Shown here: positions 1,830 through 24,761 of the stretch, piece by piece | How the letters are laid out: every line of letters starts with the position of its first letter | Position numbering within the stretch: position 1 is the stretch's first letter | Source of the DNA: a virus | Direction: 5' to 3' (one strand) | Virus record (IMG/VR): IMGVR_UViG_3300023108_000132 | Location: 1 to 25,543 of that record | Length of the DNA stretch: 25,543 bases | Notes under the pieces: model-generated | What the model was told of the DNA's origin: nothing | The model's input: only the letters and a program-made list of their open reading frames with translations | The model's database searches: none | Position numbers and translations under genes: made by a program

Positions 1830-2338
1830 AAAAAAACCAAGCTACTTAATACGGCATCTAATGGAGTATGTTTCATAGCTTCGTGATATACATCTCCTCT
1901 ATACTCTTCTATCAAATACTTGTCTCCACTCTTCTTTTTAATGGGTCTATACAATACGGCTATTGCTTTATGCATATTATTCCAATTACCTAAGTTTGTG
2001 TCAATATCTATATACTCCCCAAAGGTCATATCATCTAGCTTAGGTATGAATCCAAATTCGGTATCTCCAACTTGAAACGTTCTTACCAAATCCGGTTTTT
2101 GAGACAATAGCTCTTCAATTTTGTTTACGATTTTACGGACATCTTGTAAGCGTATTTTAAGACCATCCTCGTAATTTATACCACAAAAGATTTCAAGAGT
2201 CTTTAACATATAAAATACATCCGGATTCTTAGTCTCATCTTTCATTTGGTCGTATTGAGTAATCATCTCTAGATATTTAGAGTATTGTTGCAAACTCAAT
2301 TCGCTTAATTTGGTAGGTATATTTACTTTCAATTCCAT
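1670..2338 (-). CDS. tail assembly chaperone, zero-frame product (gpG-like)
   Basis: A 222-aa helical protein. A longer frame opens at 2383, but its first 15 codons read out of a terminator T-run and a promoter-like motif, so I choose the ATG at 2338 (MELKVNIPTKLSEL). The middle part carries FGFIPKLDDMTFGEYID and AVLYRPI, which I associate with proteins of this position in Bacteroidetes phages. Around codon 167-170 the mRNA has nine consecutive U (1828-1836). The -1 frame from that point is open for 84 more codons and has no start codon of its own, so this gene probably encodes two products, as in lambda G/G-T. Such chaperones bind the tape-measure protein during tail assembly; here that role is inferred from the frameshift layout. 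Confidence 0.65.
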   Translation of the reverse strand: MELKVNIPTKLSELSLQQYSKYLEMITQYDQMKDETKNPDVFYMLKTLEIFCGINYEDGLKIRLQDVRKIVNKIEELLSQKPDLVRTFQVGDTEFGFIPKLDDMTFGEYIDIDTNLGNWNNMHKAIAVLYRPIKKKSGDKYLIEEYRGDVYHEAMKHTPLDAVLSSLVFFYHLGIDLSNAMTKYLEEASQTDLERYKTLEGSGVGINRCIRLLRETLQDLRI

Positions 2339-2342
2339 ATGT

Positions 2343-2367
2343 ATATAACGTTGATTATTTTTATTTG
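2343..2367 (-). promoter_or_regulatory. late-type promoter motif upstream of tail block
   Basis: On the minus strand, CAAATA starts 17 nt before CGTTATAT (2343-2350), which is followed by 3 nt and TATG, the chaperone start codon. The same layout recurs before the 116-aa and 67-aa structural genes at 22272 and 19521. It lies just after a terminator, so it probably starts a new tail transcript with almost no leader. Promoter function is inferred. Confidence 0.5.
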
Positions 2368-2381
2368 TGAATCTAATGTAC

Positions 2382-2411
2382 AAAAAAAGGGTCAGCTTTC
2401 GCCAACCCCCA
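2382..2411 (-). terminator. rho-independent terminator with GAAA loop
   Basis: The minus-strand RNA forms an 8-bp stem GGGUUGGC/GCUGACCC (two G-U pairs) closed by a GAAA tetraloop and followed by seven U. It lies between the 92-aa gene and the tail chaperone, so it ends the packaging transcript. Confidence 0.85.
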
Positions 2412-2438
2412 AATTAAACAAAACATTAATTAACTAAA

Positions 2439-2717
2439 TCAATACTTTACTTGGTTACGCCACTCTGAGGCGTTCTCTAAGACTTTTAAAGAGTTTCCTA
2501 CTATCCTACCGCACAACGGTACGCATTGGGTCGTTACAAGCGTTCCTGCTTTATATCTTTTACCTCTCAATACAATATCCTTATCTAAGTATCTTTGTAC
2601 CCTCCCCTCATATCCGGTTTTACCTCTATCAGGTTCACTTACTAATTCACTCCCTATGTATTTTCTACCTATGAAGTAATCTATATGCCATCCTAAATGT
2701 TCGAATACGCTTTCCAT
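2439..2717 (-). CDS. hypothetical phage protein, 92 aa
   Basis: A 92-aa protein with an N-terminal helix-like part (FEHLGWHIDYFIGRKY), a basic centre and beta-like C-terminal stretches (VTTQCVPLCGRIVGNSLKV). Its start shares one base with the stop of the 64-aa gene upstream, and a strong terminator follows its stop. I do not recognise the family. It sits between terminase and the tail block under a host-type promoter together with the 64-aa gene, so it may be an early or middle protein and not a virion part. Confidence 0.6.
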   Translation of the reverse strand: MESVFEHLGWHIDYFIGRKYIGSELVSEPDRGKTGYEGRVQRYLDKDIVLRGKRYKAGTLVTTQCVPLCGRIVGNSLKVLENASEWRNQVKY

Positions 2718-2911
2718 TACAATTCTATTTTATCAAGTTCCTCTCTAATCGCAATCACTTCTTTAAGAATATCTTGCCGGTCGTAGTAGGTATGTGAGCG
2801 GTGTTCAATCTTAACTTCTAGAATACCTAGCTTAGCCATTATGCTTCCAATAGCCTTAGCACGCTCGTTACGTTTTTCGAAAGTTTCATCGTTTTCTAAT
2901 AAATAAGTCAT
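2717..2911 (-). CDS. hypothetical helical phage protein, 64 aa
   Basis: A 64-aa protein, almost entirely helical and charged (KRNERAKAIGSIMAKLGILE, then ILKEVIAIREELDKIEL). It looks like a short coiled coil. It is the first gene after a clear Bacteroidetes-type promoter (2937-2967), with a leader of roughly 20 nt, and is followed without a gap by the 92-aa gene. The family is not recognised. Having its own promoter separate from terminase hints at expression at a different time from packaging genes. Confidence 0.6.
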   Translation of the reverse strand: MTYLLENDETFEKRNERAKAIGSIMAKLGILEVKIEHRSHTYYDRQDILKEVIAIREELDKIEL

Positions 2912-2936
2912 ATCAATAGTTTTAATTAATTATACC

Positions 2937-2967
2937 GCAAGATAATAAAAAATACTTTATCAACAAA
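2937..2967 (-). promoter_or_regulatory. Bacteroidetes-type promoter (TTTG-N19-TATCTTGC)
   Basis: The minus strand has TTTG (2964-2967), exactly 19 nt, then TATCTTGC (2937-2944). This fits the known Bacteroidetes sigma-ABfr consensus TTTG-N19-TAnnTTTG with one mismatch in the -7 box. The -33 context TTTTGTTGATAA is identical to that at 10428. It would drive the 64-aa and 92-aa genes. Confidence 0.75.
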
Positions 2968-2985
2968 ATTTTTTAATAAAAATCA

Positions 2986-4146
2986 CTATCTAATGGCGTA
3001 TTTACCGTAATTAGGGCGTGATAGCTTATTGTAAGTGGCGTATCTACAAGCGTCAATACTGTGATTATAAGCATCTACCGGAGTATTTAACACAACTCCA
3101 TTCTTATCTTCTTTCCATTTGTAGTTACGAAATTCCTTTATAGTATTTGTGGATGCCTTAGTTACATACAATGTGTAACGCTTCAACATATCTATTCCAA
3201 TATTTATTGAATCTCTTCCTTTTGTTGCCGGTTTAATATTCCATCCAAACTTATATATCTCATCTATTGATTTAGGTTCAGCGGAATCCGCAAATATCTC
3301 AGCTCTTCTATTGACTCCTAATCTCTCAAGCTCTTTTGCTATGTCTCTATTAGTCATTCCGGTTCTGTATATCAACTCCTCGAAGTATAAGCTTGTGTCA
3401 CGCTTGTAGACTCCAATTAATGTCGTAGGGTCATTTGTATATCCAAAATCCATACCATAGCTTAAAAACTCTGCATCTTGCGGAATAGCGTCTATGAGAG
3501 TAGACCTAAATATCAAAGACTTTCCTACACCTACTTGACCTAGACCGTAGATATTCCAATATTGCTCATCGGTATCTCTTAGGCGTTCTATTTCGGCTTT
3601 AATAGAATCATCTAAGAATGGGTTATTTTTGTAGGTTGTAATAAAGAAGTCGGCATCGTCTCTTGTTTTTACCTTCTCGTATATCCAATGAAACTCATCC
3701 GAAGGGTTGTAGTCAATTATGATACGGTCTTTTGTACGGAATACTAATTGTTGCCAATCTTCCCAATGTAACTCGTTTGCCTCGTTTACAAATAATATGT
3801 CTCGCTTTCTACCCCTTACCTTAGTCGGTTGGTCTAAAGATATGAATTCAATTAGGTTACCATTTAATATGTATTCGGCACTAGACTTATTGTGTTTACT
3901 CTCATCGTATAGCTCATAGTTCCTTAGTATCTCAATAAAGTCTCTCATTGCAGATGTCCTAAGAGCAGGATATGTCTTCCTAGCAACCGATATAGTTTTC
4001 TTTGTGTTTTTTAAAGCGTACCCAAATATGAGCCACAATATAATATTGTACGTTTTGCCAGAGCGAGTTCCACCTTGCTCTATTACAATACGTTTTTTAG
4101 ACTGTTCAAGATGCCTAAATACAACATTACTCTTCAGATCCTTCAT
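2986..4146 (-). CDS. terL: terminase large subunit
   Basis: The packaging motor ATPase and nuclease that loads DNA into the prohead through the portal. The N-terminal ATPase domain has Walker A GGTRSGKT (residues 25-32) and Walker B ILFVNE (117-122), with the N-E pair typical of Terminase_3/PBSX-type proteins. The C-terminal RNase H-like nuclease has its acidic residues at GMDFGY (D233), FADSAEP (D287) and NHSIDACRY (D365). At 386 aa it is slightly short for the family but has every expected motif. The start overlaps the small subunit by 20 nt. It is separated from portal and capsid genes by about 16 kb and is instead at the end of the ParB-containing cassette, an unusual place. Confidence 0.95.
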   Translation of the reverse strand: MKDLKSNVVFRHLEQSKKRIVIEQGGTRSGKTYNIILWLIFGYALKNTKKTISVARKTYPALRTSAMRDFIEILRNYELYDESKHNKSSAEYILNGNLIEFISLDQPTKVRGRKRDILFVNEANELHWEDWQQLVFRTKDRIIIDYNPSDEFHWIYEKVKTRDDADFFITTYKNNPFLDDSIKAEIERLRDTDEQYWNIYGLGQVGVGKSLIFRSTLIDAIPQDAEFLSYGMDFGYTNDPTTLIGVYKRDTSLYFEELIYRTGMTNRDIAKELERLGVNRRAEIFADSAEPKSIDEIYKFGWNIKPATKGRDSINIGIDMLKRYTLYVTKASTNTIKEFRNYKWKEDKNGVVLNTPVDAYNHSIDACRYATYNKLSRPNYGKYAIR

Positions 4147-4495
4147 CTATGATTTCGACTCGGAAGTGATTATTGTTCCCCATATCAACCTCTTGTCTTT
4201 CAACATACCCTCTGTGTTTAGCTTTAGATTTTAAATAGAACATTATTGATGCCTCTTTTTTGTCTTGTATGTTCTCGAATAGCTTAGACTCTACAAAGTC
4301 GATTGTAGCCTCTATAATCTCTTTTGAAGCTCTATCATAGTCCTCATCCTCTTGACACCAACGGTAATGGGTTTGCCTAGAGATGCCTACTTTTCTACAA
4401 GCTACCGATACAATGCCTAAAGAATTTTCTAATGCCTCTATCATTGCGTCTTTCTTTTCCATACCCTTTTTTATATTGTCACTAATGTCACTCAT
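4127..4495 (-). CDS. terS: terminase small subunit (DNA-binding)
   Basis: A 122-aa protein just before the large subunit. Residues about 15-50 form a helix-turn-helix (SLGIVSVACRKVGISRQTHYRW) like the phBC6A51-type and other small terminases that recognise the packaging site. The middle contains FYLKSKAKHRGYVERQEV, a segment common near the end of such proteins, and the tail is acidic. The start touches the stop of the second ParB gene (TAATG, 1-nt overlap), and the end overlaps the large subunit by 20 nt, so the two terminase subunits are translated together. Confidence 0.88.
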   Translation of the reverse strand: MSDISDNIKKGMEKKDAMIEALENSLGIVSVACRKVGISRQTHYRWCQEDEDYDRASKEIIEATIDFVESKLFENIQDKKEASIMFYLKSKAKHRGYVERQEVDMGNNNHFRVEIIDEGSEE

Positions 4496-5037
4496 TATAT
4501 GTCTTTTTGGTCTAGTTCAAACTCCTCATAACAATGTGGGCAAGTTACGTTTACCTTCTCTTGTCTTACCTCATCTTTGTATTTGTTATCCATTTGGTGT
4601 TGTTGCTTCTCAAACTCTTCTTGAGTAGTATTGTCGAGATTGAATCCTACACTATCATCTAGCCAAGCTTCTAGATTAATGTTTTGAAAGTAGTCTTGCA
4701 TATCTACATTGTTACCTATCTCTCTTAGCTCAATCATTAAATCATCGTTATCCCATATAGTAAGCTCGTGAGTTTTATTATCAGCTATTCTATATTCTTT
4801 AGCTTTTTGTTCAGACAACTCTACCACTACACACTCTACTTCATCGTAACCTAATTGCATTAGTGCTTTATATCGAGCGTGTCCGGTTATTATAACATTT
4901 TTGTTATCTAAGACAAGCGGTTGGTTAAATCCGTATTTGCTAATAGATTTTTTTAGAGCCTCAACGGTTCGCTCATTTTTCCGAGCGTTTCTCCAATATG
5001 GTTTTATCTCAGATAATTTCTTCTTTTGGATTTTCAT
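4495..5037 (-). CDS. ParB/Srx-fold protein next to terminase
   Basis: A 180-aa ParB-like protein of the short phage type. Residues 6-90 make up the ParB/sulfiredoxin-like domain: KLSEIKPYWRNARKNE, ISKYGFNQPLVLD, then the nucleotide-binding signature ITGHARYKAL (about 50-59) and IADNKT. The C-terminal part ends with CPHC (166-169), a half zinc-ribbon. Phage copies often sit beside terminase or DNA methyltransferase genes. The family can bind nucleotides (CTP in true ParB) and DNA; some relatives have nuclease activity. It has no ParA partner here, so plasmid-type partition is unlikely. It overlaps the IbrB-like gene by 29 nt and terS by 1 nt. Confidence 0.85.
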   Translation of the reverse strand: MKIQKKKLSEIKPYWRNARKNERTVEALKKSISKYGFNQPLVLDNKNVIITGHARYKALMQLGYDEVECVVVELSEQKAKEYRIADNKTHELTIWDNDDLMIELREIGNNVDMQDYFQNINLEAWLDDSVGFNLDNTTQEEFEKQQHQMDNKYKDEVRQEKVNVTCPHCYEEFELDQKDI

Positions 5038-5674
5038 CTTTGTATTTCTTTTTTAATTGTAATTGCTTTTTTACTTCCCAAGCTTTTTTGTATTCTGTAT
5101 CTTCAAAGAGCTTACTAAATCCTGTGATGTGTTTCAATCTTATCAACTCTTCGGACTCCATTCCTAGCTCTTCTAATATCTCTGCGTCTTGCCATCCGTT
5201 GTCGAGCATCTCGAATACAATATTACTCATCCCACTTATAGAGTGCTTACCTCTAGCTCTATTGTGTCTAATTGTAGAAGCCATACGGTCGTTTATGTCT
5301 TTCTCTATTACTACTATCGGCAACTTACCGTGGTTTCTTTCTAGGATGTCCTTATAGCTTTTACAAGTAAAATACCTATGGAATCCATCTACTATAACGT
5401 ATTTATCCTTCTTTTTGTCATAAACTGTTACAACGGGTTGTGTATACCCATCGTGTGATATAGATGTATAGAGTAGCTTCATTTCGGTTTTAGCCACACT
5501 ATTAGGGTTGTAATCATTTGCTTGTACCTTATCTATATCTACCCACTTTACTCTGTTTATAGGTTGAGAGTTTAATGGGGATATGTCGTGAAGGAATTGT
5601 TGAACTTGTTCTAGAAATTCAATCTTGTCTTCAGCTTCATTATATTCTTTTATGAATTGTTCTTCAAATGTCAT
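5009..5674 (-). CDS. ParB-like protein of the IbrB/YbdM type
   Basis: A 221-aa protein whose ParB/Srx domain covers residues about 43-145. It shows VDIDKVQANDYNPN, SISHDGYTQPVV, the signature YVIVDGFHRY (92-101) and the later motif IRHNRARGKHS (135-145). The last motif and its partner make it the IbrB/YbdM subtype. In E. coli that protein is encoded beside IbrA/YbdN, a PAPS-reductase-like protein; here the same pair is joined by an ATGA overlap. The biochemical role of IbrB is unclear; regulation of gene expression has been described for the E. coli pair. C-terminal residues 150-221 are helical and basic, likely for DNA or protein contact. Confidence 0.82.
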   Translation of the reverse strand: MTFEEQFIKEYNEAEDKIEFLEQVQQFLHDISPLNSQPINRVKWVDIDKVQANDYNPNSVAKTEMKLLYTSISHDGYTQPVVTVYDKKKDKYVIVDGFHRYFTCKSYKDILERNHGKLPIVVIEKDINDRMASTIRHNRARGKHSISGMSNIVFEMLDNGWQDAEILEELGMESEELIRLKHITGFSKLFEDTEYKKAWEVKKQLQLKKKYKDENPKEEII

Positions 5675-6813
5675 TCCGGTATGTATCTGTTTTTTATTCT
5701 AGTGTATTTTACTTCATCCCCCCTTGCCCATCTTCTAAAGTCCTCCATCTCGGGTGTCTCTGTAAAGTTACGCAATTTATTTAAATCGATGTCGTTAGCC
5801 AATATGGTTTGGATTTCAGCCTTGATTAGGTTATCTCTCAAAAGCATCTTCTCATATCGTTTATCGTAGACCTCCCACTTCTTTGTAAACTTTTGTTTCA
5901 ACTTCTCATTCTTTACAAGTTTCTCTGTTAGAAAGTCTCTATACTCCTCCCAAGACCTAAACATAAATGGAAGCTCCTTTACAAAGTAATCATCTTTGCT
6001 TAGTTTTCCGGCAGTATCTATTCCGCTCATTCTTTTGGTAAGTGCAGTCCAAGTGTCTCTCTCAATTTCTTGTAAATAGAATAGAGTTTGTATTGCCGTT
6101 TCGTGATGTAGATTAGAGACTCTCATACTTCTTGTAGGTACGCCATACATATATTGGTAATCGTACACTTTTGTATATGTCCACTTATTATCGTGAATAG
6201 CTTTCCATATGTCTGTGTAGCTCCAATCATAAATGGGATAAAATGTATATTGATTTTTTTTCTCGTTTAGTTTCTTACCCCAAGTTATATATTTGTAAGT
6301 AGCATCTTGTGTCATAGCTACGTGTCGTCTAGGACTCTCTTCTGACCTCACTCCTCCGAGTAGGGCGGTTCTTTGAGGAAAATCCACCTCAATAATCTTA
6401 TTAAATAAGTCATAAAAGCTTTCTGTATTGTATTTATTTTCTTTTATTGAATACGGTTCTCTAGGTCTCATTGTTTCAACGCCATCTTCCCAAGCCGTTA
6501 TCCATTGTTTGAAATTAGACGTTGCATTGTATATCTTAAAAGGTATTTGATACCATCTTAAATCTACATCGGGGTCATCGTTTATCTCTCTCATATGGTC
6601 GATTACCGCTCCCCATTCCGCTTCTTGGTCTATAAAGATTGCCTTAACCGGTAGCCTACCCTTCTCTCTAGCCACCTCAATAGCTATTCTAAGCGTTACT
6701 GTCGAATCTTTTCCACCCGAGTAGCCTACTAGTACCTCATCGAATTCATCGTATAAATAACGGACTCTTTTTAAGGCTTCCTCATATACGTTGGTCTTTT
6801 TATATATTTTCAT
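5671..6813 (-). CDS. PAPS-reductase/DndC-like ATP pyrophosphatase (IbrA/YbdN type)
   Basis: A 380-aa protein of the adenine-nucleotide alpha hydrolase (ATP pyrophosphatase) fold. The PP-loop VGYSGGKDST (residues 29-38) binds ATP and releases pyrophosphate. It is followed by a conserved-looking FIDQEAEW (about 60) and a WYQIPF/W-rich segment near residue 85-105. The C-terminal third (EEYRDFLTEKLVK, DFRRWARGDE) looks like the DUF3440-type region of IbrA. Relatives include sulfate-assimilation PAPS reductases and DndC, which puts sulfur on DNA. No DndB/D/E or cysteine desulfurase is present, so classic phosphorothioation is not supported. The ATGA link to the IbrB-like gene and the 14-nt overlap with the glycosyltransferase show one translation unit. 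Confidence 0.8.
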   Translation of the reverse strand: MKIYKKTNVYEEALKRVRYLYDEFDEVLVGYSGGKDSTVTLRIAIEVAREKGRLPVKAIFIDQEAEWGAVIDHMREINDDPDVDLRWYQIPFKIYNATSNFKQWITAWEDGVETMRPREPYSIKENKYNTESFYDLFNKIIEVDFPQRTALLGGVRSEESPRRHVAMTQDATYKYITWGKKLNEKKNQYTFYPIYDWSYTDIWKAIHDNKWTYTKVYDYQYMYGVPTRSMRVSNLHHETAIQTLFYLQEIERDTWTALTKRMSGIDTAGKLSKDDYFVKELPFMFRSWEEYRDFLTEKLVKNEKLKQKFTKKWEVYDKRYEKMLLRDNLIKAEIQTILANDIDLNKLRNFTETPEMEDFRRWARGDEVKYTRIKNRYIPE

Positions 6814-7348
6814 CTTTGAATGTTATTGATTGTCTATATTTAGAACGTCTAGGATTTATTGCAGAAACAATCTTTTTGTGTTGTACTAAACTAGGTTGGT
6901 ATAGCCAATACTTTGTTTTAGTGCTTACCAAATAATCCCTTACCATTAAATCCATACCCGTTGGATGCTCCTCGATTCTATTCCATCCTTTGTTGTAAAA
7001 GTCTATTAATCCTTCAATATGATAGTTTGGAAAATATACACATAGATTGGACATAAAGCTAGATGGTGACATTAGGGTCGTTTGCTTTACACTTTTCTTA
7101 AGTGTCCAAAAATTAATTACACTATCACTATTATGGTTTATGAAAGCATTTGTATCATTGATAAAATCTTTTGACAATATAATATCATCTTCCATATATA
7201 AAGCACTATTGTTTTCAGCAAGCTTTAAAGTTTGTATGAAAGATTCAAGAGGTTTTTTATTTGTGTCGACATACACACTTACATTATTTAATTGACTTAA
7301 CAACAATGATATATCCCTCTCGGGAACATTTTGTATCAAATATTTCAT
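6800..7348 (-). CDS. small GT-A-type glycosyltransferase (putative)
   Basis: A 182-aa protein with the look of a compact GT-A glycosyltransferase: an N-terminal strand (KYLIQNVPERD), YVDTNKKPLESFIQTLKLA, then ALYMEDDIILSKDF (residues 49-62) with the acidic EDD metal-binding motif, and later HPTGMDLMVRDYL and YQPSLVQHKK, the usual C-terminal elements. It is shorter than most cellular enzymes (about 250 aa) but similar phage-sized versions exist. Substrate cannot be read; DNA bases, proteins or host surface sugars are all possible. It shares an ATGA junction with the methyltransferase and 14 nt with the IbrA-like gene, suggesting a common pathway. Confidence 0.68.
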   Translation of the reverse strand: MKYLIQNVPERDISLLLSQLNNVSVYVDTNKKPLESFIQTLKLAENNSALYMEDDIILSKDFINDTNAFINHNSDSVINFWTLKKSVKQTTLMSPSSFMSNLCVYFPNYHIEGLIDFYNKGWNRIEEHPTGMDLMVRDYLVSTKTKYWLYQPSLVQHKKIVSAINPRRSKYRQSITFKDENI

Positions 7349-9653: not shown

Positions 9654-9654
9654 T

Positions 9655-10392: not shown

Positions 10393-10397
10393 ATCTA

Positions 10398-10428: not shown

Positions 10429-10433
10429 AAATT

Positions 10434-11070: not shown

Positions 11071-11216
11071 AAATCTATTTCTATTTTGTTCAACAAATCT
11101 TTTCTTTTCTCGCAACCGCAACTAGCATATCCCAACCAATCTACTACAATTTTATTGACTAGCCATTTAATTCCGGTTTTTTTAAATATCTTCTCTAGAG
11201 TGTCTCCTAGTTTCAT
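11061..11216 (-). CDS. 51-aa small protein with CGC motif
   Basis: A short gene from ATG 11216 to TAA 11061-11063. The peptide MKLGDTLEKIFKKTGIKWLV then YASCGCEKRKDLLNKIE is typical of a small family in Bacteroidetes phages: an amphipathic helix (LGDxLEKIxKxTGIK) followed by C-G-C-x-x-R-K-x-x-L-N. It fills the space between the sigma-like gene (35-nt overlap) and the 72-aa gene (10-nt overlap). Function unknown; DNA or metal binding is possible. Confidence 0.8.
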   Translation of the reverse strand: MKLGDTLEKIFKKTGIKWLVNKIVVDWLGYASCGCEKRKDLLNKIEIDLWK

Positions 11217-11826
11217 AGTACTTTTTAATTTCTTTTTTTATTATTTTGATAGTGTTTCTCAAGCTCCAATAAGTAATATTCGTTGACCTAGATAACTCAC
11301 TAACATTTACGTTGTCTAAAAACACTTCTTTGAATATTCTACGCATATAATATTTTCCAAGCTCCTCTTTAGTATATTCAGCTTCTGATATATTTTCCTT
11401 CTCAAGTAACTCTAAATAAAGCTCATCTTGATACCATTCTTGTATAGACAAGTGTTTATTATATTCATTTGTTTTATGCTTCTCACTATACTCCTCAAAT
11501 TGATTTTGTCGTACCTCGTTAAAGTATGACATATCATCTAGTGATATAACGTTGACTTTATTCTTTTGTCTAATGTAATCCATATACAAATTCCTAAGAG
11601 TTACATATACAAAAAAGTAATTGACCTCATCGTTGTACATTATATTTTTACGGTGGGTTTTTAAGTATTGGTCTATTTTTATGTACATCTCTTGTACAAG
11701 GTCTTCTGCTAAAGAGGAGTTACAACCCATAGACCTAAGCATCTTAATCCACCTTTTATGCTCTTTTGCTATTATTTCTAGTACAGGCTCCAAAATGTTA
11801 AGTGTATACCAAATATTAAGAAACAA
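11182..11826 (-). CDS. phage-encoded sigma-70-like factor
   Basis: Up to 214 aa. Residues 15-92 fit sigma-70 region 2: SLAEDLVQEMYIKIDQYL (38-55) then YFFVYVTLRNLYMDYIRQKN (70-89), the core-RNAP-binding and -10-reading helices. Residues about 170-202 (VNVSELSRSTNITYWSLRNT) form a region-4-like helix-turn-helix. Domains are joined by a charged linker. Such proteins in phages switch transcription; it is the natural candidate for reading the CGTTATAT motifs upstream of late genes. The start is uncertain: the ATG at 11826 overlaps the 57-aa membrane gene by 49 nt, while a TTG at 11793 would leave 16 nt. Confidence 0.75.
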   Translation of the reverse strand: MFLNIWYTLNILEPVLEIIAKEHKRWIKMLRSMGCNSSLAEDLVQEMYIKIDQYLKTHRKNIMYNDEVNYFFVYVTLRNLYMDYIRQKNKVNVISLDDMSYFNEVRQNQFEEYSEKHKTNEYNKHLSIQEWYQDELYLELLEKENISEAEYTKEELGKYYMRRIFKEVFLDNVNVSELSRSTNITYWSLRNTIKIIKKEIKKYYETRRHSREDI

Positions 11827-11951
11827 AATGTTATTTGATGATACATCTCTTCATCTGTAACCTCTTCTATTTGAGGGTCAATGCGAGGACTATAATATAA
11901 AACCCCTAGTGAAAGACCGTATATTGGTATAAATTGTATGTCAAATCCCAT
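11778..11951 (-). CDS. 57-aa small membrane protein
   Basis: A short gene from ATG 11951 to TAG 11778-11780, preceded by AAAAGGA. The peptide MGFDIQFIPIYGLSLGVLYY has a first hydrophobic segment (residues 5-20), an acidic loop (RIDPQIEEVTDEEMYHQ), and a second hydrophobic segment (ITFCFLIFGIHLTFWSL, 40-56). It looks like a two-pass membrane hairpin. It lies between helicase and the sigma-like gene, overlapping the latter. Phage membrane microproteins of this sort can act in superinfection exclusion or membrane anchoring; function is not known. Confidence 0.78.
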   Translation of the reverse strand: MGFDIQFIPIYGLSLGVLYYSPRIDPQIEEVTDEEMYHQITFCFLIFGIHLTFWSLY

Positions 11952-15548: not shown

Positions 15549-15832
15549 TATTTTCTTTTATCTCTTTGTAAATACTCAAGGTCTTTCATAAAGTCTCTCA
15601 TCTCTAAAGTAATCTCTCTTACTTCGGCTTCGAGTTGTCTTTGGTTTTTCCAAGTGTATTCCTTTTCGTTATATTTTAATTTAGCTACGTCAGAAGCATT
15701 AGTTTCTATCTTGGCACTTAAAGTATAATAAGAACCTACAATAGAAGCAAACATAGCAGCTATCGTAATAATCTGTGTAACGCTGATTGAAACGTCAGCT
15801 TTTCCGTCTCCGTCTATATCAATTTTTGCCAT
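15548..15832 (-). CDS. membrane-anchored coiled-coil protein with EF-hand-like start (spanin-like?)
   Basis: A 94-aa protein with three parts: an N-terminal Ca-binding-like loop IDIDGDGKADV (residues 3-13), one membrane helix (VTQIITIAAMFASIVGSYYT, 18-37), and a long charged coiled coil (residues 55-90) containing RQLEAEVREITLEMRDFMKD. Rz-like inner-membrane spanins also have one membrane helix followed by periplasmic coiled coil. Marine phages often have such a gene beside the endolysin. The 14-nt overlap with the 49-aa gene and TAATG link to the 52-aa gene put it in the lysis unit. Confidence 0.62.
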   Translation of the reverse strand: MAKIDIDGDGKADVSISVTQIITIAAMFASIVGSYYTLSAKIETNASDVAKLKYNEKEYTWKNQRQLEAEVREITLEMRDFMKDLEYLQRDKRK

Positions 15833-15968: not shown

Positions 15969-15971
15969 TGT

Positions 15972-18341
15972 TTATGCTATTGCTAAATAGATGTAAGTTT
16001 CGTTTAATGTATTAACATCGCTTCCACTTCCTTGTAAGGTAAATCCATTTGTTTCAAAATCTAAAGTATTTGAGGTTGAATCACTTTCTGAATTGTTTAA
16101 ATTCGCCCATAATCCTGAATTTCTTGGGTCAGAAGTGTTTCTCGCTGCATCTACTATTCTCCAATTTCCTGTATTTGAAGATTCTTTAATCATTAGCCAT
16201 CTTGGCTGAAATCCTGTCGTAACTGTATTACCAGCACTTCCCGTTCCCGTATAACTCCCCACCTTCTGATAACCATCTACTGAATGGAATGCGTAAAATA
16301 AAAATCTATCCAAATTGCCTGTAAAAGCATCTTCAATTCTTATTTCAGTAGAAGTTGCAACACTAACACCATTTAAAGTATCATCTACAAACGCATCTGT
16401 AGTATTAAGTTTTCCCCTGTCTGTTGAACCGTCAATTATATTAGTAAATGTGTGCCAATTACTTGTTGCATCAAGTATTTTTGTAATTACAAGTTCAGGT
16501 GTTGAGTTTAGTCCGTGAGTAAAATCTGTTCTATGGTTAGATGCTGTATGATTTGGGTCTATTTCATATATACCAAACCCTGATGCTGTATTTATAGAAC
16601 ATCCTGTAAAAGTTGGACTGTTTCCCCCATTACCTGTTATTGACAATCCCGCAGCACCTAAAGTTGCGTGTCCTGTTCCATCAATATTATATGTACCTGC
16701 TGAACCTCCTGCTTTCCAACACCAAGCGACATATTGTTGAGATGAACCACTTCCATTAGTCGCATCACTACTACTAACAGTAAACCCATTAGAATCAAAA
16801 GAAGTTAATTCATCAGTTGCATAACTCTCTGCATAATCGTGATTTATTCTTAATCTATTTCCTGCACCTCTTACTGAATCAAAAGCGTGATGATTTCTTG
16901 TAGAACCTCCACTTCTCTTTTTTATCCAAACTAAATCAGGTTGGAATGCCATACCTAAAAAGTTTACGTTGGTAGGTGTTCCGTCAAATCCAAAAGATAC
17001 ATTAGTTGCAGCACCATCGTAGTTTGTAGTTTCGTCTGTTGCATCTCCATCTAATTTGTAATATGCTACATAATCTGTTGGAATAGATGCGGTAGTATTA
17101 TTATATAAATATCCTACTTCTTGGGAAGTCAATTTATCAGGATATATTCTTACATCGTCAATTTTACCTTTAAAATAGTAGTCATCACCATTCCCCCATT
17201 GTCTACCAATAGTTGTTGTTCCGCTCGGAGCAGGAAAAGATGATACAGTTCCACTAGATAAGTTGGTTGTCATTGTTAATTCTGAATTATTCAACCAAGC
17301 ACTATATCCTGCATTACTATCAAATGTAAATACAATATGATTCCACCCTGAATTTACTGTAACTATTCCCGCGGTTTGGTATAAATATGCTCCATTACGA
17401 ACTTGCATACTAAAATAAAAGTCTGAACCATCCCAATATAGCCCTGCACCTGCCCAAGTAGTGCTTCCGCCTATTGACTGACTCCATAATTTTCCTTGGG
17501 TGGCGGATATACTTGAATCCACATCAAACCACATAGAAATAGATTGACCAAATCCTATGTTTGGAGAGCCTGTTATATAACTATTAGTTCCATTAAACAC
17601 AGCCGCTCCACCAAAATTACCATTTACTCCCCCTGTATCATTAGCATCCTCATCTAACTCATATAAAGCAATACCGTGTCCATCCCCAAATATATCCGTA
17701 GTTGATTTAGTACTACTTGCGTAGGTTTCTCCATATAGAGTAGTTACTTCTGAAGGGGATAATGCTTTGTCAAAGATTCTTACTTGGTCTATTTTACCGT
17801 GCATCGAGCCAACTCCTGTAGTATGATATTTTCCAAAACCTTCCCAAGAACCTGATGGATTAGAATTTCCTGTAGTATCTCCATTCGTTGCTACGGGAGT
17901 TGAATTTCCATTTAAATAAATATTTTTACCACTTGTACTACTTGAAGTATATACTATATGATACCATTGCCCTGTTGATATTACATTAGATGTAGTATTA
18001 AAAGTGCTTGTTCCATTATAAGTAGCAATCTTTCCGCCATCAAATATAGCTAAATACCACCAAGTATTTTTATAAGCCTCATAAATTACTCTATAATTTG
18101 ATGCTGCTGCCAAACTATCAAAATAAACCCAGCAAGAAAAAGAATAGTCATTAACGGGTATTAAACTTGGAGTTTCTATATAACTACTACTCCCATCAAA
18201 AGCAGCACCCTTTCTTATATACCCTGTTATCTTTTGTGTACCACCGTTTCCTGTATAGGTTACAGTTTCAAAGTTTTGTAAAGGGTCAAATGCTGCAGGT
18301 GCAGCCTCCGCTCCTGTATTTATAAGTCTTTTATTAATCAT
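15972..18341 (-). CDS. large LamG/DUF7483-like tail fibre or receptor-binding protein
   Basis: A 789-aa secreted-type, cysteine-poor protein without a signal peptide, as expected for a virion part. Residues about 40-205 and 235-410 are two LamG (concanavalin A-like) domains, each with GSWEGFGKYHT/TTIGRQWGNGDD-type strands and a closing KIDQVRIFDKALS or KIDDVRIYPDKLT motif. Residues about 455-789 carry paired modules of the DUF7483 kind: FQPDLVWIKKRSGG, FDSVRGAGNRL, YVAWCWKAGG, then FQPRWLMIKESSNTG and FETNGFTLQGSG. LamG folds bind polysaccharides, so binding to the host surface is likely. Start is a TAATG overlap with the preceding gene. Confidence 0.75.
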   Translation of the reverse strand: MINKRLINTGAEAAPAAFDPLQNFETVTYTGNGGTQKITGYIRKGAAFDGSSSYIETPSLIPVNDYSFSCWVYFDSLAAASNYRVIYEAYKNTWWYLAIFDGGKIATYNGTSTFNTTSNVISTGQWYHIVYTSSSTSGKNIYLNGNSTPVATNGDTTGNSNPSGSWEGFGKYHTTGVGSMHGKIDQVRIFDKALSPSEVTTLYGETYASSTKSTTDIFGDGHGIALYELDEDANDTGGVNGNFGGAAVFNGTNSYITGSPNIGFGQSISMWFDVDSSISATQGKLWSQSIGGSTTWAGAGLYWDGSDFYFSMQVRNGAYLYQTAGIVTVNSGWNHIVFTFDSNAGYSAWLNNSELTMTTNLSSGTVSSFPAPSGTTTIGRQWGNGDDYYFKGKIDDVRIYPDKLTSQEVGYLYNNTTASIPTDYVAYYKLDGDATDETTNYDGAATNVSFGFDGTPTNVNFLGMAFQPDLVWIKKRSGGSTRNHHAFDSVRGAGNRLRINHDYAESYATDELTSFDSNGFTVSSSDATNGSGSSQQYVAWCWKAGGSAGTYNIDGTGHATLGAAGLSITGNGGNSPTFTGCSINTASGFGIYEIDPNHTASNHRTDFTHGLNSTPELVITKILDATSNWHTFTNIIDGSTDRGKLNTTDAFVDDTLNGVSVATSTEIRIEDAFTGNLDRFLFYAFHSVDGYQKVGSYTGTGSAGNTVTTGFQPRWLMIKESSNTGNWRIVDAARNTSDPRNSGLWANLNNSESDSTSNTLDFETNGFTLQGSGSDVNTLNETYIYLAIA

Positions 18342-18802: not shown

Positions 18803-18804
18803 AA

Positions 18805-19311: not shown

Positions 19312-19317
19312 ATCTTT

Positions 19318-19521: not shown

Positions 19522-19525
19522 ACCT

Positions 19526-19551
19526 ATATAACGTATTATTTTTTGTTTTTG
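19526..19551 (-). promoter_or_regulatory. late-type promoter motif upstream of fibre/lysis block
   Basis: On the minus strand CAAAAA begins 18 nt before CGTTATAT (19526-19533), followed by 3 nt and TATG. Layout is the same as at 22277-22302 and nearly the same as at 2343-2367. The A-rich part overlaps the end of a tiny Lys-rich gene. Confidence 0.5.
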
Positions 19552-19625: not shown

Positions 19626-20116
19626 CCCACAAAGTTGTTATTTCTATCCGGATTCATATCCTCATTTGTGTTACTATAATACTCTGTATACTTACTAGAA
19701 GCATTAAAAGACATATGGTCTAGAAATCTTGTAGTATAAAAATCTGCAAAATGTCTATGTCTTTGTACTAGAAAATCTATTTCTTCTTTGCTAGGCGTTT
19801 CTGCGTTTTCGCTTCTGTGCTTAAATAAACCACCGTTTTTTATCTCATAAGCTGCGAAAGGCAAATAGTCTACCATTGCATAGTGTATTAACATAGGTTG
19901 AATATAAGAGTTAACTAAGGTTAAATAGTCCCCCTCTAATTCATCGTTTATTATGTCAGTACTTATTTTATTGTATAAATCCGTTCCAAGATAATTTTGG
20001 ATATGCATTTGTTGTGCAATCTTTATAAATTGTATGAATTTATCTGTGTCAACGTTTCCGTTTATGATAGTATTCTTTACTAAGTCATCTCGTTTTATAA
20101 ATAGTGCAGTTGCCAT
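19613..20116 (-). CDS. head-tail connector (DUF6712-like)
   Basis: A 167-aa mostly helical protein placed directly after the portal (3 nt). It has the pattern FIKRDDLVKNTIINGNVDTD, then KFIQFIKIAQQMHIQNYLG near the N-terminus and SYIQPMLIHYAMVDYLPFAA in the middle, typical of gp6-like/DUF6712 connectors of Bacteroidetes phages. These bind under the portal and form part of the neck. Confidence 0.72.
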   Translation of the reverse strand: MATALFIKRDDLVKNTIINGNVDTDKFIQFIKIAQQMHIQNYLGTDLYNKISTDIINDELEGDYLTLVNSYIQPMLIHYAMVDYLPFAAYEIKNGGLFKHRSENAETPSKEEIDFLVQRHRHFADFYTTRFLDHMSFNASSKYTEYYSNTNEDMNPDRNNNFVGWVL

Positions 20117-20119
20117 AGT

Positions 20120-21925
20120 TTATGCTCTCCAATAGTTATTATTCTCTCCGGCAATTTGTGCCACTCTTTTATCATTCTCTTCGAATCTCGCATCTTTTCT
20201 CTCGCTAGGGTCAAGATTATTTATCATCTTTCTTGCCTCGTTTACAGAAATTTTACGGTTATTTTTTCTCATATAGATTTTTCTCATCCAAAAGTGTTTA
20301 CAATTAACTCCTCCTTTGAATAAAAATGGATTATACGAGTTAGATCCACCCTCTCCAAAACCTTCATTAACAGACAGCTCTTTATTTAAATCCTCAACCC
20401 TATATAGTTTTTGAGCTTTTACCATCTTTTTACAAAAGTCTCTACTGTTTTCACTTACCGATAACGGCGCATATTGATACCGGACTTTGAATAAGGATGT
20501 GTCTTGTTCGCTACTTTTACTAGGTGTACCCTTTATTACGTTTGCGAAGTTCATTATACCCTCTATATGAGCGTCTCTCTCGTGGTCTGCCGGTCTTTCG
20601 TCAACTAAAACGTATTCCTCGCTTAATTCCTCTCCAACGCTCTCTAAAGCCTCTAAAACGCTTTTACGCATTTCTTCCGCTGCTTCTACAGGTACACAAT
20701 TAGGTACTTTCTTTCCATCTTTTGTTTTCCAACCTATCATTTCATATCCTTCCCAACAAGGTTCTTTTAACTCTTGTTCAGATAGTGATAACTTTTGTCC
20801 GGTTTCCTCTTCAACTTGCTCTTTAGTCATAGCGTTATCAAGTTCTGTAAACTCAATAGGTTGCAAAGTCTTAAAGTATAGCCTTAGTGATATATCATTA
20901 AACGCAAGTATTTTATCGAAAGCGTCAATTAAAAGATTTTGAAACGGTCTTATTACAGTATTATCCATCAAATTAGAAGCCGTTTTAAGCTCTTCTGCGT
21001 TGTTTCCGAGACCGGTCTGGTCTTTTATGCCTAATAGCATAGGGGAAACTATCCTGTGGCTTACCATTATCTTTCTCATCGATTCATCTGAAAGGAATTG
21101 ATATTGGTTATGAGCATCGGATAATTGTACAGGCTCTATACTTGCAGATTGGTCGTTATTATCATTAAATGAGAGTATAAATCTACCGGCATTAGACGTT
21201 CCGCTAAACTTGTCTTTTATTCTACTCTCTATCATTTGACGTTCCTCTTCCGTAGGTACGCCGTTATTAAAGTTAATTAACATAGATGGAGCTAATCCAT
21301 TCATTATGTTATTTAAGTGGTAGTTTGCAATCTCTTCCTCTAGTTCCGAATATTGTAAGCCACCTTGATAATCTACAGGGGAGTAATAGTAGTAACCGGT
21401 CTTATATGGCTTTACATATAAAATCTCGATACCCTCATTACTGAAACCGAATGCAGGTATACGCTTTAGGTTATCTTGTGGCTTTACTTTAGACCAATTC
21501 GAGTGATAAAAATAAGCTTCTATATCTCCATCCTCGTTACACTTTTCCGCCCTTAGGGTTTCTACAGGGAAGTGTTCTACTTGCACGATTTGAGACCTAT
21601 CTTTAGAATAGATAACTTGCATAGAGCATTGACCCATTAACTTTAGGTCACTTGCTAACTTTTGTACACAATCGTTTCTAAAAAGACCTTTCATCTTAGC
21701 ATAGCCATCCGGATTTTTATTAGAATCACTAGCGTCTAAACCTTCTCCAAATATTAATTGCGATATGCCGTTTATAGCAGCGTTATTGGTAGGACTTCCG
21801 TTGTAACGGTCTATTAAATATTGAAAATAATTGTTATCATCCCCGTATGAGACGTAATCCTTATTCTTTTCCTCTTTTACTTTAGGCGATGTGTATGTGC
21901 CTAATTGTACTATTTTAATGCTCAT
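20120..21925 (-). CDS. portal protein with MuF-like C-terminal extension
   Basis: A 601-aa protein. The first 380 residues have a portal pattern: DYVSYGDDNNYFQYLIDRYN, NNAAINGISQLIFGEGL, and the later SHRIVSPMLLGIKDQTGLGN. The portal ring is the door for DNA. It continues with CWEGYEMIGWKTKDGKKVPN (residues 390-409), a Glu-rich helix, and a segment from 491 (SENSRDFCKKMVKAQKLYRV; later GGVNCKHFWMRK, 538-549) resembling the MuF/minor head protein end (S-R-x-F-C ... C-x-H-x-W). This suggests fusion of portal and minor head functions. Its ATGA start overlaps the 116-aa gene. Confidence 0.82.
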   Translation of the reverse strand: MSIKIVQLGTYTSPKVKEEKNKDYVSYGDDNNYFQYLIDRYNGSPTNNAAINGISQLIFGEGLDASDSNKNPDGYAKMKGLFRNDCVQKLASDLKLMGQCSMQVIYSKDRSQIVQVEHFPVETLRAEKCNEDGDIEAYFYHSNWSKVKPQDNLKRIPAFGFSNEGIEILYVKPYKTGYYYYSPVDYQGGLQYSELEEEIANYHLNNIMNGLAPSMLINFNNGVPTEEERQMIESRIKDKFSGTSNAGRFILSFNDNNDQSASIEPVQLSDAHNQYQFLSDESMRKIMVSHRIVSPMLLGIKDQTGLGNNAEELKTASNLMDNTVIRPFQNLLIDAFDKILAFNDISLRLYFKTLQPIEFTELDNAMTKEQVEEETGQKLSLSEQELKEPCWEGYEMIGWKTKDGKKVPNCVPVEAAEEMRKSVLEALESVGEELSEEYVLVDERPADHERDAHIEGIMNFANVIKGTPSKSSEQDTSLFKVRYQYAPLSVSENSRDFCKKMVKAQKLYRVEDLNKELSVNEGFGEGGSNSYNPFLFKGGVNCKHFWMRKIYMRKNNRKISVNEARKMINNLDPSERKDARFEENDKRVAQIAGENNNYWRA

Positions 21926-22272
21926 AAGATGATATAATCGTTATCGTATGTCGTTTCTGTGTCATAAACGTCTTTATTGATAGTATAGTAGTCATTACTA
22001 GATTGGTCTACAGTTTGGTCGGTGCAAAATACTTTGTCTTTGTATATAGTAGCTCCCGAAGATGTAAGTTTTAAATCATAATAATGTCCTTCTTTTAGAG
22101 AAAATGATTCAGATATAATATTGTAATCTCCATCTTCTGTTAAGGTTATGTCACTAAAAGTAGTAACCGTATTTGTTTGGTCATCTCTTAATGTAAGGGT
22201 AGCCGTAGTTACATATTCTCTAGGAATCACTTTTATAGTTTGCGCTCCGGATGAGGTGCTTAATATTTTCAT
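21922..22272 (-). CDS. beta-rich virion protein, 116 aa
   Basis: I take ATG 22272 (MKILSTSSGAQTIKVIP); an ATG at 22344 would begin inside a terminator. The 116-aa product is almost all beta strand with Thr, Ser and Asp (EYVTTATLTLRDDQTNTVTT, DLKLTSSGATIYKDKVF) and an acidic Tyr-rich tail. It is a single-domain fold like small capsid-decoration or neck proteins. It sits between capsid and portal, and shares ATGA with the portal start. Name not known. Confidence 0.6.
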   Translation of the reverse strand: MKILSTSSGAQTIKVIPREYVTTATLTLRDDQTNTVTTFSDITLTEDGDYNIISESFSLKEGHYYDLKLTSSGATIYKDKVFCTDQTVDQSSNDYYTINKDVYDTETTYDNDYIIL

Positions 22273-22276
22273 ACTA

Positions 22277-22302
22277 ATATAACGCAATAAAAATCTTTTT
22301 TG
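22277..22302 (-). promoter_or_regulatory. late-type promoter motif upstream of portal block
   Basis: The minus strand has CAAAAAA starting 18 nt before CGTTATAT (22277-22284), then 3 nt and TATG. It directly follows a terminator, so a new transcript for the 116-aa, portal and connector genes may start here, nearly without leader. Confidence 0.5.
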
Positions 22303-22305
22303 CAT

Positions 22306-22336
22306 AAAAAAAGGGTTACATTTCTGCAACCCCTTT
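22306..22336 (-). terminator. rho-independent terminator with GAAA loop
   Basis: Minus-strand RNA stem GGGUUGCA/UGUAACCC (one G-U pair) with a GAAA tetraloop and seven U after it. It follows the 173-aa gene by about 20 nt. Its loop and stem length match the terminator at 2382-2411. Confidence 0.87.
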
Positions 22337-22356
22337 AAAATCAAATGAAAAATTAA

Positions 22357-22878
22357 TTATGGTGCTACTTGTGTTGCACTAGCAGCTCCCGTAACTACTG
22401 TGGCGGTTACAAAATAAGCAGGGATAGTTTCCTGTGCAGTTAATGTAAGAGTAAATCCGCTAAGGTCTCCCATAGCAGCTCCCGTTACAATAGTTCCGCC
22501 ACTTACTTCCGCTCCGTGTACCGCACCTACTAAAAGATAGTTTCCGTTGTAATCTTCAACGAATACGTGTGGTCTAGCGTGTGCAATTAATTTTAACTCC
22601 TCTTGTGTAGCTAAATCAAGTTTTGTTAAAGTTAAATTCAAGGTTTGCTCATAGAAAACTGTACCGTTCTCAGTTGAGGCATTTATTGTTTGCTCTAAAG
22701 AAGAGTTACCTTTTAAGTCAAATTGGAATAAGGTAGGTGTACCGCTGATCGAATCAACGTTTCCGCTAGTTACTGTTAAAGTACCTAGAGTGTCGTAATC
22801 AGCAAAATATACCGCCTTTAATCCACCTACTGAATCTCTACAGGGTAAGCTTCTTCCGGTTGTTAATGTACAAGCCAT
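22357..22878 (-). CDS. virion protein, tail-tube-like
   Basis: A 173-aa beta-rich protein directly after the major capsid gene, with terminators on both sides, so probably abundant. The start MACTLTTGRSLPCRDSVGGL followed by AVYFADYDTL, then FYEQTLNLTLTKLDLATQEE and VFVEDYNGNYLLVGAVHGAE, are typical for phage tail-tube-type proteins of Bacteroidetes phages. Strand order and G-x-x-x-G-A-x-x-G-D-x-x-G-F-T-L-T-L-T-A near the C-terminus are in keeping with tube subunits. A head-decoration role is the alternative. Confidence 0.55.
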   Translation of the reverse strand: MACTLTTGRSLPCRDSVGGLKAVYFADYDTLGTLTVTSGNVDSISGTPTLFQFDLKGNSSLEQTINASTENGTVFYEQTLNLTLTKLDLATQEELKLIAHARPHVFVEDYNGNYLLVGAVHGAEVSGGTIVTGAAMGDLSGFTLTLTAQETIPAYFVTATVVTGAASATQVAP

Positions 22879-22891
22879 ATTTTAGGGTATT

Positions 22892-22928
22892 AAAAAAGGG
22901 CAGGTAGGCTTTTCGGCTTACCCACCCT
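22892..22928 (-). terminator. rho-independent terminator after major capsid gene
   Basis: Minus-strand RNA pairs GGGUGGGUA with UACCUGCCC (9 bp with two G-U pairs), continued by G-C pairs beneath a CGAAAA loop, then six U. It lies between the capsid gene's stop at 22956 and the start of the 173-aa gene. Confidence 0.82.
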
Positions 22929-22955
22929 CTAAGTTAATTAATTGATTATTGTTTA

Positions 22956-23912
22956 TTATGGGTTATTAGCTGTGTTAGCAATACCATAAGTTATGATGTC
23001 CTCTACATTTCCGTATTGAACTCCGGCAGTAAATCTCATAATTACTCTCGCATTTTGAGAACCATCTAGGTCAGCCATATCTAATACTTTTACTTCGTTT
23101 TGGTCAGAAAGTAATCCTGTTCCAAAGTATAAGTTAGATTTTTCAGCAGCAATAGCATCGTTATCAGCAAGACCATTAGCTACGAACAATTTAACGCCAT
23201 CAAAAGATAGTGCGCCGTTGTTCCACCATTGAGTACCTTGAGCGTTAACCCCGTTTGCACCAAGTCCGGCTGCTCCGAATCCACCTAAAGCTCTTACATA
23301 AGCTCTTGCGATATTTTGAGATACATAAATGTATAAATCTTCACTTCCATAAAGAGTAGAAGGAATGGCGTCAACGATTTTACCTAATTCAGTAATTACG
23401 TTAGCAGCAGTTACAGTAGTACCTGCAATTTCGTTTGCAACAGGCAAAGCGGCATCTGCCCCTAATAGTGTAGCTATTCCATTAAACTCTCCGGCATTAG
23501 CAGTTACTCCACTCCAAATGTTTTGCTCAGTTTTTTCTGCAACTTTAGCCACAACGTGAGCCAATAAGAAATCAGCAAATTTTGGTGGTAATTGGTCGAA
23601 TGCAGAGAATCCTTGTTGAGCAGCTTCCCAATCTGAATGGAAATCTGATTTACAAAGCTCTAAGTTTACTTGAAACTCTTCCGGTTGCAAAATTCTCTCA
23701 GTAAGAGTAAGCGTTCCGGCATCTGTAAAGTCACAAGAAGCGTTTCCGATAATTCCACTTGTAGAAACTTTCTTTACTACTTCTTTATATTTTACATTAG
23801 GCTTAACAGTGATACCACCGTTATCGATAGTGGCTCCTGATAATAGGGCAGCGGAAATGTACTCCTGTGCAAATTCCCCTGCATATGTAGTAGTTATACT
23901 AGGTGTTGGCAT
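22956..23912 (-). CDS. major capsid protein
   Basis: A 318-aa protein with the composition and layout of an HK97-fold capsid protein: an N-terminal arm (MPTPSITTTYAGEFAQEYIS), the E-loop region with VKYKEVVKKVSTSGIIGNAS, the long spine helix (FADFLLAHVVAKVAEKTEQN), and a P-domain with LGKIVDAIPSTLYGSEDLYI. It follows an acidic scaffold-like gene by 10 nt and is closed by a terminator. Pro-part removal cannot be judged. Not a phage with a separate decoration gene that I can recognise. Confidence 0.88.
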   Translation of the reverse strand: MPTPSITTTYAGEFAQEYISAALLSGATIDNGGITVKPNVKYKEVVKKVSTSGIIGNASCDFTDAGTLTLTERILQPEEFQVNLELCKSDFHSDWEAAQQGFSAFDQLPPKFADFLLAHVVAKVAEKTEQNIWSGVTANAGEFNGIATLLGADAALPVANEIAGTTVTAANVITELGKIVDAIPSTLYGSEDLYIYVSQNIARAYVRALGGFGAAGLGANGVNAQGTQWWNNGALSFDGVKLFVANGLADNDAIAAEKSNLYFGTGLLSDQNEVKVLDMADLDGSQNARVIMRFTAGVQYGNVEDIITYGIANTANNP

Positions 23913-23922
23913 TTTCTAAAAT

Positions 23923-24624
23923 TTATTTGTTAAAAAGTTTATTGAATACTTTGTCATACGTTGTATGAGCTCTATTTTGCGAAATTTGTCTCATTTTTAC
24001 ATCGGTTTTCGCTTCCGGATTGTGTTTGATAGGTTTAGATGCGGGAGTCTCAGAAAGCTCTTGTTTTACTTCCTCTTCCACCTTCTCTTTAGCTAGTTTT
24101 TCCTCTTCTTTTTCTTTCATCTTTCCTAGCTCATCCTTAACATATCCCAACTCTTCTTTCATTTCCTCAATCATAGGACTTACTGCCTGTACAACTGCGT
24201 CAACAATTTGAGTCATTTCGTCTTTGTCCTCTTCGAGATTCTCTTCTACAACCTCTTCAGATAACTCTTCCGCTTCCGGCTCATCTTCTTTAGCTTCCTC
24301 TTCGGGAGCTTCCTCAGATTTTTTGCTACCGGTTGCGACTTCATCGTTTGACAAATCTTCTTTCATCTCAGCTTCCTCTTCTTTAGCTTCGCCCATAGAT
24401 GCGATTACCCCTTCCTCTTCGACTATTAGTGATTTACCATCTTCGAGTGTATACTCTCCAATAGGCATAGGCACTTTTTCATCTTCGGTTACGATAAATA
24501 CGCTCTCTCCGGATGCAAAACTGTCAGCTTCAATGATTGTTCCATTTTCTAACTTCATTTCTTCTAGCTCTACTTTAGCTTGTAGCAACGTCGTTATTTT
24601 GGATAACATTTCGCTTGGTTTCAT
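23923..24624 (-). CDS. acidic scaffold-like capsid assembly protein
   Basis: A 233-aa protein, extremely rich in Glu and Lys, with low-complexity helices from residue 65 to 195 (EEEAEMKEDLSNDEV, EEEAKEDEPEAEELSEEVVE, MKEKEEEKLAKEKVEEEVK). A more ordered beta N-terminus (VELEEMKLENGTIIEADSFA) and a basic C-terminal end (AHTTYDKVFNKLFNK) complete it. Long charged coiled coils with a basic capsid-binding end are usual for scaffolding proteins, and the place just before the capsid gene agrees. The start overlaps the 46-aa gene by 4 nt. Confidence 0.78.
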   Translation of the reverse strand: MKPSEMLSKITTLLQAKVELEEMKLENGTIIEADSFASGESVFIVTEDEKVPMPIGEYTLEDGKSLIVEEEGVIASMGEAKEEEAEMKEDLSNDEVATGSKKSEEAPEEEAKEDEPEAEELSEEVVEENLEEDKDEMTQIVDAVVQAVSPMIEEMKEELGYVKDELGKMKEKEEEKLAKEKVEEEVKQELSETPASKPIKHNPEAKTDVKMRQISQNRAHTTYDKVFNKLFNK

Positions 24625-24761
24625 AAATTATTATTTTTTTTTACGTTAATAAAAGCACATATTCCGTTCTCTTCTAGGTAATAACCGTATGGAAGATACC
24701 GTAAATTGTACTCTTTATGAGTAATCTTATTAATATAACGGCTCTTTATTTTTTTTTGCAT
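24621..24761 (-). CDS. overlooked 46-aa gene in head operon
   Basis: The frame runs from ATG 24761, 2 nt after the stop of the Cys-rich gene, to TGA 24621-24623, which overlaps the scaffold start as ATGA. The peptide starts MQKKIKSRYINKITHKEYNL, continues RYLPYGYYLEENGICAFINV and ends KKNNNL. Tyr-rich strands and good junctions on both sides support a real gene. It contains the CGTTATAT motif as its codons for R-Y-I. No family recognised. Confidence 0.72.
   Translation of the reverse strand: MQKKIKSRYINKITHKEYNLRYLPYGYYLEENGICAFINVKKNNNL
24733..24758 (-). promoter_or_regulatory. late-type promoter motif inside the 46-aa gene
   Basis: CAAAAAAAAA starts 18 nt before CGTTATAT (24733-24740) on the minus strand. 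Here 3 nt and TAAG follow, not TATG; the next start codon is the scaffold gene 108 nt on. It could drive scaffold and capsid genes. Confidence 0.42.

Follow-up and report, generated by a model that had tools for sequence, protein, structure and literature searches.

What is the two-part motif that lies in front of four gene blocks on the minus strand of this viral DNA, and what reads it? An earlier note described CAAA(A/T)A followed, 17–18 nt later, by CGTTATAT, and proposed a class of late promoters with near-leaderless mRNAs, with a translation signal as the alternative for the three copies linked to gene starts. In the window (the whole stretch of 25,543 nt that we analyzed), CAAA(A/T)A does begin 17–18 nt upstream of CGTTATAT at each of the four sites. 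At three of them (2350, 19533, and 22284), exactly three nucleotides and TATG, at the start of an ORF, follow directly. The sites and the genes and terminators near them are as follows.

24733–24758, minus strand: putative late promoter of the scaffold/MCP operon (the 24740 site), CAAAAAAAAATAAAGAGC-CGTTATAT; the start codon (24624) is about 110 nt downstream
23923–24624, minus strand: scaffold-like gene behind the 24740 promoter
22956–23912, minus strand: major capsid protein (MCP), from position and family; its PHROG is unnamed (phrog_11320, E = 1.9e-40)
about 22308–22332, minus strand: hairpin and T-run (terminator) directly upstream of the 22284 promoter; RNA fold of −15.4 kcal/mol, z −3.0
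22277–22302, minus strand: putative late promoter of the adaptor/portal operon (the 22284 site), (ATG)CAAAAAAGATTTTTATTG-CGTTATAT-TAGT, then ATG
21922–22272, minus strand: adaptor-like head gene, first behind the 22284 promoter and before the portal gene; homologues in 86 sequences
20120–21925, minus strand: portal protein (phrog_33693, E = 2e-127)
19526–19551, minus strand: putative late promoter of the tail-region operon (the 19533 site), CAAAAACAAAAAATAATA-CGTTATAT-AGGT, then ATG
2387–2410, minus strand: intrinsic terminator (hairpin with T-run) directly upstream of the 2350 promoter
2343–2367, minus strand: putative late promoter of gene 1670–2338 (the 2350 site), CAAATAAAAATAATCAA-CGTTATAT-ACAT, then ATG
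25120–25543, minus strand: 3′ end of a gene resembling a protease-like virion gene (shared stretch SIEGYFADK.ERPKE, by eye); its start is beyond the window

As the earlier note had it, two of the sites directly follow terminators, and all four precede virion or tail genes: scaffold/MCP-like genes (24740), the adaptor and portal genes (22284), the tail region (19533), and an unnamed gene that adjoins tail-like genes (2350). The MCP gene's own start has no copy of the motif. Other features on the minus strand include two overlapping ORFs at the window's end (24764–25153 and 25120–25543) and a large protein with laminin-G-like and DUF7483 domains (15972–18341), which is a likely tail fibre or receptor-binding candidate. 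Upstream of the terminase genes, two overlapping ParB_N-domain genes adjoin a PAPS reductase + DUF3440 gene (4495–5037, 5009–5674, and 5671–6813).

All four minus-strand copies of CGTTATAT that the earlier note listed are present, but the exact total is six (starting at 2343, 11544, 19526, 22277, and 24733 on the minus strand and at 15667 on the plus strand). This compares with 1.7 expected, and none of 100 shuffles reached six. The bipartite pattern, CAAA(A/T)A-N11/12-CGTTATAT, occurs at just the four sites, each in the same orientation as the genes; on the non-coding strand there were no matches, and the reversed pattern gave none. We also scored the window with a weight matrix whose training sites came from relatives only, with the window excluded. 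The four sites ranked 1, 2, 3, and 5, and one of 60 Markov shuffles had any site at the window's fourth-best score. Of the two extra copies of CGTTATAT, the one at 15667–15674 (plus strand) is antisense within a gene and has no CAAA partner; the other (11544–11551, minus strand) is discussed below.

Relative contigs were gathered by similarity of their capsid proteins, and they have the same element at the same (orthologous) late-gene starts as the window. The site orthologous to 24740 is linked to the start codon in L079, L089, L051, and L054, and the site orthologous to 22284 was inspected in about 85 relative loci. The 19533 site is present at the same position in G043, and the 2350 site has orthologues in G042, G021, G015, and G043, as well as in many contigs that carry the sigma gene described below. 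Among 22 exact matches to CGTTATAT at −30 to −8 of ORF starts, 15 have the C exactly at −12 from the ATG, with two or fewer at any other offset. The usual partner box in relatives is (T)GCAAAA or ACAAAA at 19 nt (18 nt in the window's nearest kin), and the putative −35 part reads AACAAA in most of them.

Across IMG/VR, the pattern GCAAAA-N12-14-CGTTATAT-N3-TATG matched at least 120 stretches, versus 13 for the reversed pattern. Among the matches listed, an ORF of 50 or more amino acids begins at all 125 sites (versus 25.5% for all TATG), and 112 of 118 loci have other genes of the family (versus 0 of 13 controls). Also among the matches listed, 114 of the 125 sites precede one of three virion families: 41 are adaptor-like, 30 are scaffold-like, and 43 are protease-like (a name that is our judgement from sequence and position). 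This last family, behind the motif at 43 sites elsewhere, is the one that the gene at 25120–25543 resembles. Sites lie in front of late genes only, as in the class of late promoters read by phage sigma factors. In the same phages, none of 145 starts of MCP, head, or portal genes has GTTA near −12.

Besides two copies of CGTTATAT, the earlier note overlooked the likely recogniser of the motif, which is a gene for a divergent sigma factor. A look-alike of the motif lies within it.

11182–11826, minus strand: divergent ECF-type sigma gene, the proposed reader of the four sites; TTG start; from PF04542, TIGR02937, and an AF2 model
11544–11570, minus strand: look-alike CAAAAG-N11-CGTTATAT within the sigma coding sequence; CAAAAG is 17 nt upstream

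The protein has the region 2 fold that marks ECF group IV, with Pfam and NCBIfam matches that are below the curated cut-offs (PF04542, E = 2.5e-4, below gathering; TIGR02937, E = 3.1e-6). Its AF2 model matches region 2 of E. coli sigmaE and of SigR (TM to target 0.62–0.63). As for region 4, TIGR02937 aligns to 26–203 and helices are predicted at 153–212; the model places the domains poorly (pTM 0.41). The sigma relatives have 159–214 amino acids and two domains, without regions 1.1 and 3, as expected for ECF sigma factors (about 160–210 amino acids). After one profile iteration, all relatives of 19.6 kb or more that we searched over their full length had a homologue of the window's gene, and we found no sigma-less relative among those of at least 19.6 kb that we examined. 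Furthermore, contigs that were found by their sigma alone have xCGTTATAT at the starts of gene 1670 or the adaptor gene again. A profile search of genome contigs with the sigma gave two weak, unconvincing matches among those listed.

The look-alike at 11544–11570 has a matrix score as high as those of the real sites. We rejected it as a real promoter: it is not conserved in the sigma homologues L008–L010, so from this comparison it is probably a coincidence. It might act as a chance internal promoter.

We noticed no anti-sigma gene downstream of the sigma gene. A 57-amino-acid ORF with a hydrophobic C-terminus (11778–11951, minus strand) extends into the start of the sigma gene. Many relatives have ORFs of 57–63 amino acids at this place, and several of the sigma genes have no ATG there. 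Such an ORF might couple translation or act on the sigma. We also considered a frameshift into the sigma gene; the upstream overlap is common, yet there is no consistent slippery site, and we rejected this idea.

An isolated relative, Nonlabens phage P12024S (Inhavirus), has both the motif, which marks late genes there too, and a sigma-like gene. It has six copies of ACAAA-N13/14-CGTTA on the coding strand and none antisense (0.97 in shuffles), and each is 12–13 nt before the start codon of gp05, gp08, gp35, gp41, gp44, or gp45. There is a seventh, weaker copy at gp01. The annotation of gp33 is sigma-70 region 2. (Direct searches of isolate phages with the window's sigma, and then with the G042 sigma, gave no match; gp33 was found via the portal protein and a profile.) The family most likely infects flavobacteria, and the kinship of the window's phage to P12024S suggests that it does as well.

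A change in concert across many sites is expected if a single trans-acting reader changes. At orthologues of the adaptor site that lack CGTTATAT, there is an ACAAA-like box at about the same spacing with a different −10 sequence: AGTTATCTTATT, GATTATCT, TATTATAT, TATTGTAT, GTTACTTATAAT, or AT-only. The scaffold and gene-1670 sites often share one genome's −10 variant. Unlinked sites indeed change together within a genome: the longest strings that they share averaged 9.1 within genomes versus 7.4 between genomes (p = 2e-4), and two further comparisons of unlinked sites gave means of 11.4 versus 8.6 (p = 2e-4) and 9.6 versus 7.7 (p = 8e-4). Shared T-runs add to the lengths in some genomes, but in many cases the shared string is the −10 box. 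The −10 class also tracks the sigma lineages (CGTTA, AGTTA, then ATTA types). In the sigma tree, CGTTA lineages are widely spread, AGTTA groups with AT-only, and the classes without a G form one clade. A glycine next to region 2.3/2.4 is absent from all 22 sigmas with a [CA]GTT box and present in all 12 with G-less boxes; the residues there are NxFY-like in 22 sequences and xxGY in 12. We rejected this association as a case of independent coevolution: on the tree it arises from one change and thus lacks independent replication.

We propose that the motif is a late promoter for the host's RNA polymerase core with the phage's ECF-type sigma, and that most of the late mRNAs are leaderless or nearly so (a probability of roughly 80%). 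A late promoter class with near-leaderless mRNAs, as the earlier note had suggested, is the reading best supported by the conservation at orthologous sites, the spacing of the two boxes, the terminators, and the absence of the motif from MCP, head, and portal starts. From the sequence comparisons, the phage's sigma-like protein probably reads this two-part switch. In the proposed mechanism, the sigma would be made from the early/middle region, and the host core with this sigma (11182–11826) would then recognize CAAAWA as the −35 box and CGTTATAT as the −10 box. According to PMC8948821, the sigmas of phages phiEco32 and 7-11 start RNA 6–9 nt from the promoter element. If transcription here begins about 6–9 nt after the CGTTA core, which is at −12 to −8, then by analogy the RNA would start at −2 to +2 of the ATG, or within 2 nt of its A, at three of the four sites, and these mRNAs would have little or no leader. 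At the 24740 site, a leader of about 100 nt would remain. In Flavobacterium johnsoniae, most leaders are over 10 nt, with a mean of 33 (PMC6847099). With less confidence, we favor a broader proposal: a widespread family of flavobacterial phages has its own fast-drifting ECF-type sigma and leaderless late mRNAs, with the promoter setting the start codon and with a co-evolving series of boxes (CGTTA, AGTTA, ATTA, and AT-only).

We consider it unlikely that the promoter is instead read by a sigma of the host, be it the primary sigma of Bacteroidota or an ECF sigma. Bacteroidota commonly have ECF sigmas, the architecture of the element is of the ECF kind, and a host-specific change could also shift the −10 box in concert; but each phage of at least 19.6 kb that we examined encodes a sigma itself, and the −10 class tracks the tree of that sigma. 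An ECF sigma of the host could in principle recognize the boxes, yet it would not account for a −10 box that goes with the phage's sigma. Nor do the late sites fit the consensus of the primary sigma, TTTG/TAnnTTTG (PMC6847099): they match it inconsistently, at 3–5 of 6 positions, and only 22284 reaches 5 of 6. The earlier note had set the motif apart from two clear host-type promoters in front of other genes. Our intergenic scan for TAnnTTTG gave only partial matches, so those promoters are plausible rather than clear. Promoters were not in excess in a generic sigma-70 scan.

A translation-initiation signal seems less likely still. In this explanation, CGTTATAT-N3-T at −12 guides the ribosome to late start codons, and CAAAWA is part of an A-rich leader. 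The strict spacing of −12 from the ATG at most sites would fit, as would the A at −6, and often at −3, which matches the Kozak-like preference of F. johnsoniae (PMC6847099). But the start signals measured in flavobacteria are A at −14 to −11, −6, and −3 (PMC6847099), and the invariant CGTT at −12 to −9 runs counter to the A preference at −14 to −11, so the element does not fit a Kozak-like signal, though A at −6 is present. Furthermore, at several sites the spacing of the two boxes is kept although the ATG is 20–110 nt away, as at 24740 and at the adaptor genes of G037, L079, and L081. The box pair is also away from the ATG at the gene-1670 sites of G006, L217, and L227 and at the scaffold sites of G032 and L074. 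Because the boxes float relative to the ATG, CGTT contradicts the A preference, and none of the 145 control starts has the motif, we disfavor a translation signal; the terminators directly upstream also argue against it.

Finally, we give hardly any weight to binding sites for a phage activator or repressor beside an unseen promoter: a two-part site with fixed spacing can be an operator, but this element is not palindromic, its spacing of 18–19 and its AAC/CGT fit a sigma, and where a terminator precedes the site, the stretch from it to the start codon offers little space for a second promoter.

If the sites are indeed late promoters for the phage's sigma, then the promoter would set the choice of start codon in a host whose mRNAs mostly have leaders and lack Shine-Dalgarno sites, and virion genes, in a phylum that lacks such sites, may as a rule be translated from leaderless mRNAs. 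Little is known about gene timing in Bacteroidota phages, and our proposal offers a concrete, testable system of late transcription for a large family that includes the isolate P12024S. The family might also supply orthogonal pairs of sigmas and promoters. And the simple DNA signature could locate late operons in contigs from uncultured phages.

Phage sigmas with late promoters are already known, from T4, phiEco32, and 7-11. T4 gp55 is likewise a phage sigma for virion genes, but at T4's late promoters the −10 box stands alone, and the clamp and gp33 are required as well. As with phiEco32 and 7-11, the phage described here encodes its own sigma. In PMC4331800 and PMC8948821, phiEco32 gp36 (tAATGTAtA) moves the host polymerase to middle and late genes, with starts 6–8 nt downstream; its promoters are single elements without a −35 box, and gp36 has no homology to region 4, whereas here the −35 box is conserved. 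Phage 7-11, a phiEco32-like phage of Salmonella, also combines a phage sigma (gp47) with the host core at bipartite late promoters (GTAAtg-16-aCTA); the sigma sequence, the boxes, and the host phylum are different, and the passages of PMC8948821 that we consulted report no coupling to start codons for 7-11. The primary-sigma promoters of Bacteroidota (TTTG or TAnnTTTG) would be used for the early genes of a phage like this, but their boxes, and leaders of 33 nt on average, differ from what we see at the motif (PMC6847099).

The closest likeness is to bacterial ECF systems, with a small two-domain sigma and similar box signatures and spacing. In published ECF promoters, AAC at −35 and CGT at −10 are 16 ± 1 bp apart (PMC3426412). 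P12024S has AAC-N16/17-CGT and relatives have AAC-N16-AGT, which follows the layout of ECF promoters; in the window's clade, AAC has turned into TGC or CAC, while CGT and the spacing hold. Unlike in bacterial ECF systems, the sigma is a phage gene, the −35 box degenerates to GCAAAA or TAAAA, the −10 box drifts by phage lineage, and the targets are virion genes. In the open-access literature that we searched, we found no paper describing such a promoter class for flavobacterial or Bacteroidota phages. What looks new is this lineage, the coupling of promoter to start codon, and the visible drift of promoter and sigma.
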